Below, one piece after another: positions 4,744-41,859 of a stretch of 41,859 nt of DNA; the stretch's first letter is position 1; every line of letters starts with the position of its first letter. The notes under the pieces were generated by a model. The model worked only from the letters and a program-made list of their open reading frames with translations. It made no database searches and was not told where the DNA came from. A program made the translations under genes and the position numbers. The stretch comes from a virus: positions 1 to 41,859 of IMG/VR virus record IMGVR_UViG_3300034071_000909; one strand, 5' to 3'.

Positions 4744-4933
4744 ATTTATTGAACAAAACAAAGATCGGATAAGCGAAGAAAAGCTAACACTGCTAAAATC
4801 ATTCGCTAATTTATCTGGCTTTGAGTTTACGTCTTCGGTGTATGTTCCGAAAGATATTAATAAGCCTCACGGTGCATCTTTGACGTTTTATCGAAAGGAC
4901 AAAATAACAATAAATATTAGTCTGGAGCTTTAA
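4691..4933 (+). CDS. Hypothetical protein
   Basis: 80 residues starting at the ATG inside the end of the preceding gene. C-terminal part beta-rich (ASLTFYRKDKITINISLEL). No family recognised. Confidence 0.55.
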   Translation: MTQIPQTEKQNETWTLDKFIEQNKDRISEEKLTLLKSFANLSGFEFTSSVYVPKDINKPHGASLTFYRKDKITINISLEL

Positions 4934-4935
4934 CA

Positions 4936-5112
4936 ATGGCAGCTAACACCATAAAACCCGGCTATCACTGGGCAATGTATCGCGGCAAACCTGAAATAGT
5001 TTTTGTCGTTAACGGCTACGTGCAGAGGATGGGTAAACACCTGTCTTATCTGCTCAATGAGTTTACATTTGTTGAACATATACCTGAGAAAAAACACAGC
5101 GAACCCTTGTAA
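4936..5112 (+). CDS. 58-residue hypothetical protein
   Basis: Starts two bases after the previous stop. Sequence GYHWAMYRGKPEIVFVVNGY suggests a small beta sheet. Its last codons contain the -33-like element of the RNA promoter that follows, so it ends its transcription unit. Confidence 0.55.
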   Translation: MAANTIKPGYHWAMYRGKPEIVFVVNGYVQRMGKHLSYLLNEFTFVEHIPEKKHSEPL

Positions 5113-5136
5113 CTCCCGTTCTTTTTTCTATATTTG
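5106..5136 (+). promoter_or_regulatory. Promoter of structured RNA, copy 1
   Basis: CTTG (5106-5109, one change from TTTG), a 19-base spacer, then TATATTTG (5129-5136), a perfect TANNTTTG. Predicted start near 5142, just before the first helix of the structured RNA. Confidence 0.65.
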
Positions 5137-5142
5137 CAACAC

Positions 5143-5256
5143 GGATTGAGACCCGTTTACAGTGAGTAAAATATTCACAAGCCTGATTGGCCGAAGATCA
5201 CAAGGGTTCACTGTACCCGTCTCAATTGTGGTTGTAGGCTTTTCAGGCTTTTTTAA
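5143..5256 (+). ncRNA. Candidate pseudoknotted RNA, copy 1
   Basis: Helices visible: A, ATTGAGAC (5145-5152) with GTCTCAAT (5219-5226); B, AAGCCTGA (5179-5186) with TCAGGCTT (5243-5250), followed by a T run; B2, GCC (5190-5192) with GGC (5237-5239); C, GATCAC (5196-5201) with GTGGTT (5228-5233, one G-U); D hairpin, GGGT (5204-5207) with ACCC (5215-5218). Because B and C open inside A and close outside it, A and B/C form a pseudoknot. The loop of D (5208-5214) complements 5159-5165. Copy 2 at 6040 keeps every helix with different bases. Ends 15 bases before the next start, so it could be a cis-acting leader or a separate small RNA. I recognise no published class. Confidence 0.75.
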
Positions 5257-5265
5257 TTTAATGCA

Positions 5266-5751
5266 ATGCCCAAAAAAATACTTGACGCTTGTTGTGGTAG
5301 CCGCATGATGTGGTTTAACAAATCACACCCCGACGCTATCTATACTGATATTCGTGAGGTTTCGGCTGATCTTTGTGACGGCAGAAAATTAGAAGTAAAG
5401 CCGGATATTATCGCTGACTTTACAAACTTGCCGTTTGAAAATGAATCGTTTTACCTTGTTGTGCTCGACCCGCCTCACATGAAAAATTTAGGTGAAAACA
5501 CATGGCTTTTCCAAAAATACGGTAAACTGTTTCCGGGGTGGGAGGAACAAATAAAGCACGGTGTAAATGAATGTATGCGTGTTTTAAAACCCAATGGCGT
5601 TTTGATTTTCAAATGGAACGAGCATCAGGTAAAACTAAATGAGGTGCTTTCTATAATAGACTTCGAGCCATTGTTTGGTCACACATCCGGTAAACACGGT
5701 AGAACAATCTGGCTAACTTTTATGAAAAATGAAGAACCGAAAAGCGTTTAA
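5266..5751 (+). CDS. Class I SAM-dependent methyltransferase-like protein
   Basis: 161 residues. Motif I reads ILDACCGSRMMWF (5-17), then an acidic YTDIR strand end. The catalytic-type motif is DPPH (68-71), as in the N4/N6-amino DNA methyltransferases (consensus D/N/S-PP-Y/F/W), with His in the aromatic position. Target base and site cannot be read. Similar single-domain proteins occur in many siphophages. Its start lies directly after the structured RNA. Confidence 0.78.
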   Translation: MPKKILDACCGSRMMWFNKSHPDAIYTDIREVSADLCDGRKLEVKPDIIADFTNLPFENESFYLVVLDPPHMKNLGENTWLFQKYGKLFPGWEEQIKHGVNECMRVLKPNGVLIFKWNEHQVKLNEVLSIIDFEPLFGHTSGKHGRTIWLTFMKNEEPKSV

Positions 5752-5754
5752 CTG

Positions 5755-6006
5755 ATGGCAAAAATAGACTTCAAAATAGGAAACATTTACGAACTCGACG
5801 GCATACAATTTCGATTAATCAGAATGCGTTCTGGTCTTGTAAAAGTATTTCAGCAACTCAATCCAGACGGAACAGATTTTCAGGTATGCCGTAAACGCCC
5901 AGACGGTACATTTGGGGCAATAGTTGATTTTGGCGTTAGGGTTATTCACGCTCGAATTGATGAGGTGAAAGAGGTGCAAACAGAGCAGCAGCAAAAATTA
6001 TTTTAG
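5755..6006 (+). CDS. Hypothetical protein
   Basis: 83 residues, three bases after the methyltransferase gene. The beta-rich pattern FKIGNIYELDGIQFRLIRM resembles a small barrel domain. The Gln-rich C-terminus is probably flexible. Followed by the second structured RNA. Confidence 0.6.
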   Translation: MAKIDFKIGNIYELDGIQFRLIRMRSGLVKVFQQLNPDGTDFQVCRKRPDGTFGAIVDFGVRVIHARIDEVKEVQTEQQQKLF

Positions 6007-6031
6007 TTAGTCTAAATAATCACTATCTTTA
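6001..6031 (+). promoter_or_regulatory. Weak promoter of structured RNA, copy 2
   Basis: TTTT (6001-6004), 19 bases, then TATCTTTA (6024-6031), each one base from the Bacteroidota consensus. Its position relative to helix A is like that in copy 1. Transcription could instead read through from the gene upstream. Confidence 0.4.
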
Positions 6032-6037
6032 TCACGC

Positions 6038-6150
6038 GGATTCAGACCCCGTTCAAACAATGAATAAAACATTGCCCGCTTGGCGAAACTACAAGGGTTA
6101 CATTGTACCCGGTCTGAATGTAGTTATCGCTTTGCGGGCTTTCTATTTTT
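6038..6150 (+). ncRNA. Candidate pseudoknotted RNA, copy 2
   Basis: Same architecture as copy 1 with changed pairs: A, ATTCAGACC (6040-6048) with GGTCTGAAT (6111-6119); B, GCCCGC (6074-6079) with GCGGGC (6134-6139); B2, GCG (6083-6085) with CGC (6128-6130); C, AACTAC (6087-6092) with GTAGTT (6120-6125); D, GGGT (6095-6098) with ACCC (6107-6110). ACAATG (6057-6062) can pair either with CATTGT in the D loop (6101-6106) or with a local CATTG (6070-6074). Copy 1 has the same two options. Ends 16 bases before the replication gene. Confidence 0.75.
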
Positions 6151-6155
6151 AACTG

Positions 6156-7073
6156 ATGGCCAGACCTGCTAAAAAATCCTGTGACTATTTTCCGCATGAT
6201 GCCGGAATGAGAAATCACAAAAAGATAAAAGCTATACGCACAAAGTTTGGCGTAACCGGCTATGCGGTTTGGTGTATGTTGTTGGAGCATTTGACCGGTA
6301 GTGATTACACCCGGTTTGAATATTCCGATCTTGAATTTGAATTGCTTTCTGGCGACTTCGGAGTTTCTGCAACAGAAATTCGGGAGGTTGTGGATTACTG
6401 TTTTGTTTTGGGGTTGCTTTTTAAAACCGATAACTGGATTTCAAGTGAATCTCTTAACGAAAGGCTTGAACCGGTATTCGCCAAACGTGAACGCGCAAAA
6501 GAGTTTCTGCAACAGCAACCCCGTTCTAATGGACGTTTCTGCAACAGTAATACCGATGCTACGGGAGTTTCTGTGACAGAAATGCCGCAAAGGAAAGGAA
6601 AGGAAATAAAAGAAAATGAAAAGAAAGGAGATGAAAGTAAATTAGGCGTAATGCCTTCGGCTGATGTCTCTCAAATTCCTGAATCGGATAATTTACAACC
6701 AGAACCTAATGCACCTGAAAAGCCCGATACTCAAAAAAAATTCCGGCCGCCCGAAATTTCCGAAGTTGAAAACTATATGTTTAAAATCGACTTTCCGGGC
6801 ATAATCAAAAACGAGGCTGAAAAATTTATCAACCACTATACGGCTAACGGATGGATGGTCGGAAAGTCAAAAATGAAGAACTGGCAAGCAACAGTAAGAA
6901 ACTGGAAACTCCGAAGAAATGAAGAATCAACAATTACAACAACAGGCACAGGCGTTACCGGCAATACCGGCAGAACTTCAAAGCACGGGCATAGCGACGA
7001 AGAACTTTATGCAGCAGTTGCAAGGCAGCACGGCATCCAATTTGTGCCCCCGAACGGTAACGGAGGCAATTAA
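6156..7073 (+). CDS. DUF4373-type phage replication protein
   Basis: 305 residues. Residues 4-100 match the Lin1244/Lin1753-like (DUF4373) domain: KSCDYFPHDAGMRNHKKIKA, then GVTGYAVWCMLLEHL and a winged-helix-like region. A charged linker leads to a C-terminal segment (KFINHYTANGWMVGKSKMKN) typical of phage replication initiators and DnaD-like proteins. It probably binds the phage origin and helps load the host helicase; no phage polymerase or helicase is seen here. The last 155 bases are shared with the next gene in another frame. Confidence 0.78.
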   Translation: MARPAKKSCDYFPHDAGMRNHKKIKAIRTKFGVTGYAVWCMLLEHLTGSDYTRFEYSDLEFELLSGDFGVSATEIREVVDYCFVLGLLFKTDNWISSESLNERLEPVFAKRERAKEFLQQQPRSNGRFCNSNTDATGVSVTEMPQRKGKEIKENEKKGDESKLGVMPSADVSQIPESDNLQPEPNAPEKPDTQKKFRPPEISEVENYMFKIDFPGIIKNEAEKFINHYTANGWMVGKSKMKNWQATVRNWKLRRNEESTITTTGTGVTGNTGRTSKHGHSDEELYAAVARQHGIQFVPPNGNGGN

Positions 7074-8779: not shown

Positions 8780-9001
8780 ATGATACACTGGACAAAAACA
8801 AGCGACGAATTGCCGCGACTTAATGAATTACTGTGGTTAAAACAGCGAAACTGGATTTTTCTCGGAGAGCGATACGCGACCGCTGAAACATGGCTTTGGG
8901 CGGTTCATGTCGGTAGCTTGCACTTTGAGGATACTAAGGTTGTTTCGGATGAATGTGAGCCGGATGATGTTAGCCCCGACGAATGGGCTTATGTAAATTA
9001 A
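8780..9001 (+). CDS. Hypothetical protein, DUF551-like N-terminus
   Basis: 73 residues. IHWTKTSDELPRLNELLWLK resembles the W-x-LP opening of DUF551-type phage proteins, of unknown function. The Trp-rich middle and acidic end are otherwise unrecognised. Last gene before the second operator/promoter. Confidence 0.6.
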   Translation: MIHWTKTSDELPRLNELLWLKQRNWIFLGERYATAETWLWAVHVGSLHFEDTKVVSDECEPDDVSPDEWAYVN

Positions 9002-9030
9002 TCACCCTGAAAAACAACCACTTGCAGAAA

Positions 9031-9075
9031 TTATGCGAAATAAATTTGCAGGTATGATAAATGTGCTTACCTTTG
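9031..9075 (+). promoter_or_regulatory. Early-type promoter/operator, copy 2
   Basis: TTTG (9045-9048), 19 bases, TACCTTTG (9068-9075), with TTATGCGAA-ATAAA-TTTGCA (9031-9050) overlapping the -33 element. The left arm differs by one base (G for A) from copy 1. The upstream CCTGAAAA and the downstream CTTCATCAAACTAA also match copy 1. Confidence 0.75.
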
Positions 9076-9100
9076 CTTCATCAAACTAAAACTAACGACA

Positions 9101-9409
9101 ATGGACACTATTTTAAACACTTGGCGCAGCACGGCAGAAAAGCCGGTTTATTATTTTCTTGGCTTTCCTATCTATACAAACGGGCACTGGTCTATTTACT
9201 GTGAATTTGCGGGTAGTTTCATCTACACCTACAAAAACATAGCCATATCTAATTTAGGCGGCATAAATAAAGACCTTGTAGATATACTTTCTAACGGAGT
9301 TATCAATGTTGATGGTGACGCTGAAACACAATTGCGCGTTTTGATTAATCGGTGTTTGGAAACAAAAAGGCGCGGCGAAGAACTTTTAAAGGCGCTTAAA
9401 GGTAACTAA
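9101..9409 (+). CDS. Hypothetical protein, first gene of second small-gene operon
   Basis: 102 residues, ATG in the ACGACAATG context 25 bases after the -7 box. N-terminal part rich in aromatic residues (YYFLGFPIYTNGHWSIY), then a helical basic C-terminus. No family recognised. Confidence 0.6.
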   Translation: MDTILNTWRSTAEKPVYYFLGFPIYTNGHWSIYCEFAGSFIYTYKNIAISNLGGINKDLVDILSNGVINVDGDAETQLRVLINRCLETKRRGEELLKALKGN

Positions 9410-10586: not shown

Positions 10587-10882
10587 CACCAGAAGAAATA
10601 ACAATTGAAAAAGCAATAGAACTTCACGACAAACACACTCGCTTACGCGGCAATCTTGTTGGCGGTATAGATGCGGTTACCGAAGCCCTAAACACAATCA
10701 ACTGGATTCCGATTGATGCGGATAAGTTGCCGGAGGGTGATGTGTTGTGTTGCCATAGGCCGACAAGAGTAATGTATTTTACAAACCCTTACAAACAACC
10801 AAACTCAGACCGTGTTTTTTTTGAAAGCTGCAACAGGATGGTATGGGAATGCACCCATTACGCACACGTAAACCTACCGTGA
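10583..10882 (+). CDS. Hypothetical protein with DUF551-like segment
   Basis: 99 residues. NWIPIDADKLPEGDVLC has the W-x-P...LP...V pattern of DUF551-like phage proteins. Several Cys and His near the C-terminus. Coupled to the previous gene by ATGA. Confidence 0.6.
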   Translation: MTPEEITIEKAIELHDKHTRLRGNLVGGIDAVTEALNTINWIPIDADKLPEGDVLCCHRPTRVMYFTNPYKQPNSDRVFFESCNRMVWECTHYAHVNLP

Positions 10883-10883
10883 T

Positions 10884-11075
10884 ATGCAAACTAAACACTA
10901 CCGAGCCAAAGCCGTAGCGATCTGCGGGGCAATGGCAGAATGTTATGAGTTGAAAGCTAATGTCAAAAACCAACATCAGGTAAGTAACATTATCTGTAGG
11001 TTATGGTGGCAGCAACGGATTCGACTAATTAACAAAGAACTTGAAATTAAACTCAAACGAACATGCACGTACTGA
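10884..11075 (+). CDS. Hypothetical protein
   Basis: 63 residues, one base after the preceding stop. Basic, probably helical (WWQQRIRLINKELEIKLKR). Overlaps the next gene by 13 bases. Confidence 0.5.
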   Translation: MQTKHYRAKAVAICGAMAECYELKANVKNQHQVSNIICRLWWQQRIRLINKELEIKLKRTCTY

Positions 11076-40160: not shown

Positions 40161-40220
40161 ATCCCCAAAACCATCCCGGCCGTAAATTAATAACCCTACT
40201 TTACAGCACGTTACAATTTA

Positions 40221-40265
40221 TTTGCAAAATAAATTTGCGTATGTCGAACCGGTGATATACATTTG
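40221..40265 (+). promoter_or_regulatory. Early-type promoter/operator, copy 3
   Basis: GCAAA-ATAAA-TTTGC (about 40224-40238), then TTTG (40234-40237), 20 bases, and TACATTTG (40258-40265). Same core as the copies at 384 and 9031, with the outer arms diverged. Confidence 0.75.
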
Positions 40266-40286
40266 TCGTATCAAAATCAAACGACA

Positions 40287-40700
40287 ATGAAAAACGAATC
40301 AGCATTTACCGCCAAAGCAATTCGCGCCGAACTTAAAAAGGCGTTTCCGTCAATCAAATTCAACGTAACATCTGAGCGTTATTCAGGCGGAAATTCGGTT
40401 CACATTGAATATACAGACGGCGTAACTACGGATAAAGTAGAGGCTGTTGTTAAGAAATACCAGTACGGCGAAGTATGCTCGATGGAAGATACATACGACA
40501 TTACAAACGCCATTGCCGGATTGCCGCAGGTAAAGTTTGTGAATATAGCGCGCAAAAAGTCTGCCGCTGTAATTGCTGAGTTGCTTAATGAGGTTCGCGC
40601 TGTTTGGGGTGACTGCAAAGACGGTGAAGACTTTCTGCCGAATGCCGGTGAGTACGCGATAACAATGGTTCACCGCCTGTTTGTAACCCGCTCTTACTAA
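40287..40700 (+). CDS. LPD29-like domain protein
   Basis: 137 residues from ATG 40287 (ACGACAATG context). AKAIRAELKKAFPSIKFNVT followed by SGGNSVHIEYTDG matches the LPD29 domain, a module found alone or in large polyvalent proteins of phages and conjugative elements. The role is unknown. First gene of the last operon. Confidence 0.72.
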   Translation: MKNESAFTAKAIRAELKKAFPSIKFNVTSERYSGGNSVHIEYTDGVTTDKVEAVVKKYQYGEVCSMEDTYDITNAIAGLPQVKFVNIARKKSAAVIAELLNEVRAVWGDCKDGEDFLPNAGEYAITMVHRLFVTRSY

Positions 40701-40934: not shown

Positions 40935-41859
40935 ATGGAAGAACAAACAAACACCCTGCCCGCCGAAGTGGCGCAGATTGCTCAATCGGTTTCAGCCGAA
41001 AAGAGAAACGAAGTTCAATCAGTACTTAACCATGTCTTTTCAGGTGTTTCAAAAATGCGGGCACAACTCGACGCTGTTGTGGTGTCCGACGAAACCGATA
41101 AGGTTAACATGAAGTTGGCAAACACAATACGGCTTGGCGTTCGTCAGGTTCGTTTGGATGCCGAAAAAGTATTCGACGCTAAGCGCGTTGAGGTTCAGGC
41201 TTTAATGATCTCGTTCAAAACCGAAGATCAACTGTGGCTGAAAGCAAAACAAACGATGCAACTGTTAACCAAAGAAATCGAAGAACAAGCGCGATGGAAA
41301 GAGGAAACTAAAGCGCGTTACGATGCTGAGCAAAAAGAACTGAAAGCACAGCAACGCATGGTTCAGGTGCAAAAGTTCAATCCTGAAATTCCGCGCAGTG
41401 ACTTTGAGCACATGACAGACGAGGCGTTTACCGTGTTTCTTTCTGGCCTTGAAAAGGCGCACAACGATAAGATTGAGGCGGCGCGGGCTGCCGAAGAACA
41501 GCGGATTGCAAAAGAAAAAGCAGATGCCGAAGAACGCGAACGTGTGCGACTTGAAAACGAGCGATTAAAAGCAGAAGCAGAAGCAAAGGAAAAGCAACTT
41601 GCCGACGAACGCGCTAAAGCAGCAGCAGAGAGAGCCGCAGCCGAAGAAAAGGCGCGTAAGGAGCGCGAAGCTATTGAGGCAAAAGCCGCCGAAGAAAAGC
41701 GAATTGCAGATGAAAAGCTGAAAGCCGAGCGTGAAGCAAAGGAAAAGCAACTTGCCGACGAACGCGCTAAAGCAGCAGCAGAGAGAGCCGCAGCCGAAGA
41801 AAAGGCGCGTAAGGAGCGCGAAGCTATTGAGGCAAAAGCCGCCGAAGAAAAGCGAATTG
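40935..41859 (+). CDS. Long coiled-coil phage protein, DUF1351-like (3' end missing)
   Basis: 308 residues visible, open to the edge. An N-terminal helical domain of about 170 residues (LGVRQVRLDAEKVFDAKRVE; KFNPEIPRSDFEHMTDEAF) is followed by a Glu/Ala/Lys/Arg-rich coiled coil. Proteins of this layout (DUF1351-like) often accompany phage recombinases. The coiled coil holds a 51-residue repeat (see the repeat entry), and the window ends in its second copy. Family tentative. Confidence 0.65.
   Translation, partial: MEEQTNTLPAEVAQIAQSVSAEKRNEVQSVLNHVFSGVSKMRAQLDAVVVSDETDKVNMKLANTIRLGVRQVRLDAEKVFDAKRVEVQALMISFKTEDQLWLKAKQTMQLLTKEIEEQARWKEETKARYDAEQKELKAQQRMVQVQKFNPEIPRSDFEHMTDEAFTVFLSGLEKAHNDKIEAARAAEEQRIAKEKADAEERERVRLENERLKAEAEAKEKQLADERAKAAAERAAAEEKARKEREAIEAKAAEEKRIADEKLKAEREAKEKQLADERAKAAAERAAAEEKARKEREAIEAKAAEEKRI
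41580..41859 (+). repeat. Tandem 153-base (51-codon) repeat at the window edge
   Basis: Bases 41580-41706 recur identically at 41733-41859, an offset of 153, keeping the frame. The shared stretch is exactly 127 bases and ends at the last base of the window. That suggests assembly stopped at a repeat of k-mer length; the true number of repeats is unknown. Confidence 0.85.

Follow-up and report, generated by a model that had tools for sequence, protein, structure and literature searches.

The 41,859-nucleotide stretch analysed here (IMGVR_UViG_3300034071_000909; hereafter the window) carries two copies of what is, judged by its sequence, a real RNA element, structured and covarying, on the strand of the genes. 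Copy 1 spans 5141-5254 (+), from its predicted start to the end of a U-run, and copy 2 spans 6036-6150 (+). We put at about 0.5 the probability that each copy is a transcription-attenuator leader that gates the early gene behind it, and the RNA is probably an uncatalogued motif of this known type of control, transcription attenuation. If this reading is true, a leader RNA recurring before different early genes, a replication initiator included, would offer a control point open to direct testing and might amount to a viral sensor of the riboswitch kind. To our knowledge, little is known about early-gene regulation in Bacteroidota phages.

We regard the virus as a phage because genes for RecT, a YqaJ exonuclease, a replication initiator and a terminase are on board; the nearest relatives of the terminase are found in phages of Bacteroidota (Flavobacterium phage 11b and Bacteroides phage Versailles). 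A search with the RecT of the window led to a related virus contig, IMGVR_UViG_3300044625_000951 (L214; RecT identity 94%), where a third copy of the RNA lies at 10850-10965. Two repeats were also observed in the window. The contig closes on the right with a perfect 127-bp direct repeat (41580-41706 and 41733-41859), which either a tandem duplication or an end effect of the assembly might explain, and a 33-bp repeat (97%; 1088-1120 and 1473-1505) flanks a block that L214 has in swapped order.

The four helices of the original prediction (A, B, B2 and C) are present at the places it named in both copies, with the compensatory changes it described. Helix A pairs 5145-5152 with 5219-5226 (+) in copy 1 and 6040-6048 with 6111-6119 (+) in copy 2. 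Together with a further helix, D, the others build a predicted terminator hairpin at 5179-5250 (+) in copy 1 (B 5179-5186/5243-5250, B2 5190-5192/5237-5239, C 5196-5202/5227-5233, D 5204-5207/5215-5218) and at 6074-6139 (+) in copy 2 (B 6074-6079/6134-6139, B2 6083-6086/6127-6130, C 6087-6093/6119-6125, D 6095-6098/6107-6110). The core of helix B in copy 1 (5181-5186/5243-5248) extends to 8 bp as AAGCCTGA/TCAGGCTT (5179-5250). The stretches CAAGGGTT and GTACCC, which had been described as unpaired, in fact contain helix D (GGGT/ACCC). At the 5' end is a hairpin, H0, with the sequence ACGG[ATTGAGAC]CCGT (5141-5156, + strand, in copy 1), whose loop holds the 5' strand of A (A5') in the terminator fold and in which an A-U pair of copy 1 becomes G-U in copy 2. 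A local hairpin L, GCC[TGATT]GGC (5181-5191, + strand, in copy 1), keeps its GCC and GGC invariant in all three copies. To these we add PK2, a pairing between the D loop and an upstream strand that was missing from the earlier list of helices: ACAGTGA (5159-5165, +) with 5208-5214 in copy 1, and ACAATG (6057-6062, +) with 6101-6106 in copy 2.

Between copies 1 and 2, six pairs change on both sides with pairing kept (pair 4 of A, pair 4 of PK2, pairs 4 and 6 of B, pair 3 of B2 and pair 4 of C), and two more, pairs 1 and 3 of C, change on one side and still pair. The pair counts come from an alignment made by hand, which was preferred to RNAalifold and pair-count tools because MAFFT misaligns A in copy 2 and D in copy 3. 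PK2 reads ACAGTGA/TCACTGT, ACAATG/CATTGT and AATGA/TCATT in copies 1, 2 and 3, respectively; it is supported by a single compensatory pair and by changes in length, and comprises just 5 A/U-rich pairs in copy 3. A descriptor combining A, C, D, B and a T-rich tail, with the D-loop pairing also scored, picks up all three copies. The observed scores were not reached by any of the 3000 dinucleotide shuffles made of each copy, of which 4 or fewer gave any match at all; over 2.7 Mb of other DNA, the score of copy 2 was equalled by a single match, an AT-rich one due to chance (L149). A loose descriptor of helices only was of no use.

The original prediction had counted on further homologues with compensatory changes, and copy 3 is one, with changes of its own. 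It is 86% identical to copy 1 (L214 10801-10975 aligns to window 5092-5265); the sequence sample for covariation amounts to three copies, two of them at this identity. Copies 1 and 3 do not differ in promoter, H0, A5', B or B2; their differences fall into two blocks, the stretch of the PK2 5' strand and the stretch running from C through D, the loop and the 3' strand of A (A3') to the 3' strand of C (C3'). Within the latter, helix D changes from GGGT/ACCC to GGAG/CTCC with pairing kept, and helix C from ATCACA/TGTGGT to ATCAAAG/CTTTGAT with most pairing kept; A and C have each lost an end pair. Copy 3 precedes a different gene, an ORF without relation to the methyltransferase gene that follows copy 1. 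This gene has been swapped for the unrelated ORF in L214, between flanks that are near-identical (window 5092-5265 and 5727-5764 versus L214 10801-10975 and 11302-11339). With near-identical flanks around differing genes, the RNA and its promoter form a unit that persists through gene exchange.

All three copies have a predicted promoter directly upstream. For copy 1 this is CTTG, 19 nt and TATATTTG (5106-5136, +), of the Bacteroidota sigma-ABfr type with boxes at -33 and -7; the same CTTG-N19-TATATTTG arrangement precedes copy 3, and a weaker one, TTTT, 19 nt and TATCTTTA (6001-6031, +), precedes copy 2. By their sequence alone, the three agree with the TTTG/TAnnTTTG consensus described for the primary sigma factor of Bacteroides (PMC7366714). 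The end of the -7 box lies 4 nt upstream of H0 in all three copies, which would put the start of the RNA at, or adjoining, the start of transcription; the latter is thus predicted just past the promoter, at ~5141 for copy 1 and ~6036 for copy 2. At the other end, helix B leads into a U-run in the manner of intrinsic terminators: TTTTTT in copies 1 (5249-5254, +) and 3, and an imperfect U-rich tail, TTTCTATTTTT, in copy 2 (6140-6150, +). In L309, a Bacteroidales genome, a common terminator hairpin of like sequence, AAGCCTGC...GCAGGCTTTTT, is similar to helix B and its U-run; a terminator consensus scan restricted to loops of 3-8 nt did not list the B/B2/C/D hairpin. As had been noted from the outset, the copies end at a T-rich run near a start codon, with the end of helix B 17 nt before the ATG at 5266 and 16 nt before that at 6156. 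Three different genes follow the three copies: a DNA methyltransferase gene (phrog_954; 5266-5751, +), a gene for a replication initiation protein (Lin1244_N/phrog_2562; 6156-7073, +) and, in L214, the ORF of unknown function. The 13-base sequence TTTAACTGATGGC, a translation-start element, is present in exactly two places (5747-5759 and 6148-6160), where the genes at 5755 and 6156 begin.

Another repeated block with promoter features was seen at 348-461, 8993-9103 and 40210-40293 of the window and near 730-830, 5264-5355 and 14629-14706 of L214. Its -33 region is overlapped by an inverted repeat, which reads TTATGCAAA-ATAAA-TTTGCATAA in the first of the copies, and the block ends in a TAnnTTTG box. 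It looks like a family of phage operators/promoters, one ahead of each gene cluster.

Helix A crosses B, B2 and C, and on this ground the RNA had been called a pseudoknot. The crossing stands, but A and C abut without a linker: there are 0-1 nt between the 5' strands of C and D, and 0 nt both between the 3' strands of D and A and between A3' and C3'; in copy 2, nucleotide 6119 is needed by both A and C. With bridges of 0-1 nt and 6119 shared, full A (7-9 bp) and full C together look sterically impossible, an exclusion that we infer from general A-form geometry and the linker lengths, not from a 3D model. Folding of successive prefixes, a simulation of the nascent chain that admits nested structures only, gave the same series in all three copies: the GCC/GGC hairpin, then A+D+GCC/GGC (at ~84-98 nt), then H0+D+C, and finally H0+D+C+B with the U-run. 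By this computation, the order of folds would thus run from A+D+L to H0+D+C+B. When C3' has freshly emerged, no more than ~2 kcal/mol separates the two states of copies 1 and 3, whereas copy 2 favours A; just before the 3' strand of B emerges, the states of copies 1 and 3 are close in energy. For the full-length RNA, the terminator fold comes out ahead by 14.1, 6.2 and 14.2 kcal/mol (copies 1, 2 and 3), and the A state is not the minimum-energy fold. Compensatory changes are found in both states, in A and PK2 of the one and in B, B2 and C of the other, with D common to both. Given the abutment without linkers and the succession of nested folds, A and B/B2/C are better read as alternative attenuator states; crossing, covarying helices need not imply a pseudoknot. 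What is likely instead is a smaller, separate pseudoknot, PK2, which is compatible with the A state.

In the attenuation mechanism that we propose, the leader would be transcribed from its own predicted promoter. During synthesis, the 5' part of the RNA would close A around hairpins L and D, with the D loop pairing upstream to form PK2. This A state would keep the strands of C and B separated, and hairpin L would sequester the 5' strand of B. Were the A state lost, C, B2 and B would zip and A5' would drop back into H0, and the resulting long hairpin with its U-run would stop transcription shortly upstream of the start codon. Were it held, whether by a ligand or a protein or because elongation is slow or paused, the terminator would be delayed or prevented and the polymerase would enter the gene. 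The default may be off or on, with the computed thermodynamics leaning to termination.

The strongest rival, which we nevertheless hold to be unlikely, is that the phage makes an independent small RNA, ~115 nt long, that has a promoter and a terminator to itself; it would act in trans, its target being RNA or protein, and other transcripts would serve to express the genes downstream. It owes this standing to the fact that promoter plus terminator is its signature too: the accepted mark of Bacteroides intergenic sRNAs is a transcription start site together with a Rho-independent terminator (PMC7366714), and here a predicted promoter sits directly upstream and copies 1 and 3 have a terminator-like 3' end. 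These elements would yield a small RNA equally well, and the downstream gene is not conserved. Against this, the RNA always lies 11-17 nt upstream of a start codon on the same strand, complementary trans-targets within the window reach at best 11-13 nt, none of them compelling, and the covarying alternative helix A would have no role unless the pseudoknot forms.

It is that pseudoknot on which a clearly less probable explanation rests, a single compact RNA with A and B/B2/C paired simultaneously, serving as a protein-binding or nuclease-resistant element. Every helix covaries, the helices do cross, and the order of strands is like that of P1/P2/P3 in HDV-like ribozymes. Linkers of 0-1 nt, however, would have to span a helix A of 7-9 bp, with 6119 claimed twice in copy 2, nested folding yields two successive states instead, and P4, J4/2 and any Rfam match are absent. 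Very improbable, in our view, is a put-type antitermination element, a nascent RNA that acts on RNA polymerase so that later terminators are read through; a structured RNA opening a predicted early transcript, in two copies per phage before early genes, would suit it, but each copy ends in a terminator-like hairpin and U-run of its own. We give marginally less credit still to an attenuator of the pT181 type, in which an antisense counter-transcript would choose between the two folds. The two-state leader and the position of copy 2 before a replication initiation gene recall such systems, but a sequence scan found no minus-strand promoter above chance across either copy, and copies 1 and 3 precede other genes.

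The attenuator leader may belong to an RNA family that is larger than seen here. As far as our searches reached, the family looks narrow, since neither the viral scans nor ~1,580 Bacteroidota genomes, in overlapping samples, gave any more homologues. At the gathering thresholds of Rfam 15 the whole window has no match, and 4900-6400 has none at E<=5; copy 3 gave chance-level matches only, far below threshold (e.g. Phe_leader, 18.9 versus 55 bits). No family having matched, the original description of the RNA as apparently undescribed holds for Rfam, the comparison it had proposed, and for the collections searched here. A covariance model (R1), which recovered copy 3 in L214 as a positive control, found the three copies and chance matches only in related-phage loci from 70 sources, 0.98 Mb in total; in the Bacteroidota genomes (samples of 395, 398, 393 and 396) it produced a single match, in L309, which is a plain terminator hairpin and not a homologue. 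With blastn against phages and plasmids there was no match or chance matches only. In viral contigs, a DNA pattern for B/B2 retrieved the L214 contig alone, and a promoter-side pattern, ACRCGGATTSAGACCC, gave 11 stretches of which the real one was only in the L214 contig. DNA patterns of the form CAAGGGTT...GTACCC matched 118 (loose) or 22 (strict) stretches of viral contigs and 70 of genome contigs, and none of those inspected had the layout.

Among the matches to this last pattern, several in Bacteroidota look like hairpins adjacent to tRNAs, and another belongs to a repeat array of Halosegnis. A hairpin (e.g. AACCCTCGTAGAAGTTGTTCTACAAGGGTT) is common to the MAGs L147, L157, L158, L168, L180, L190, L196, L202 and L210, which belong to Rikenellaceae, Bacteroidaceae, Muribaculaceae and other Bacteroidales, with an apparent tRNA 3' end next to it on the opposite strand; hairpins of this type are probably tRNA-linked terminators or integration sites.

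More tentatively, and with less than an even chance of being right, the attenuator reading can be widened to a signal-sensing RNA family of Bacteroidota phages. Here an aptamer-like domain (A, D and PK2) would gate replication, methylation and other early genes, and phages would exchange the covarying core without any change of promoter and terminator.

Among known systems, the antitermination RNAs putL and putR of phage HK022 are nascent RNAs that act on RNA polymerase. Like them, the RNAs described here would be two similar structured elements of early phage transcripts, but they end in predicted terminator hairpins. HDV-like ribozymes, including the theta ribozymes of phages, share the order A5', C5', D hairpin, A3', C3', corresponding to P1, P2, P3, P1, P2; unlike them, the present RNA has neither P4 nor the catalytic C of J4/2, and A5' is just 4 nt from the predicted transcript start. 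A self-cleaving HDV-type ribozyme was rejected, C3' following directly after A3' in all three copies and catalytic elements being absent. The rep attenuators of pT181 and pIP501 likewise place a two-state leader before a replication initiator, as in copy 2, but no antisense promoter or RNA was found here and the other copies precede unrelated genes. The closest parallels are attenuating leaders and riboswitches. This RNA differs from them in having no known ligand or match to an Rfam riboswitch or leader, and in being phage-borne, as far as seen in two related virus contigs only. It shares with them the succession of promoter, 5' domain, alternative fold (here only putatively exclusive), predicted intrinsic terminator and start codon, and the placing of the same RNA before several genes.
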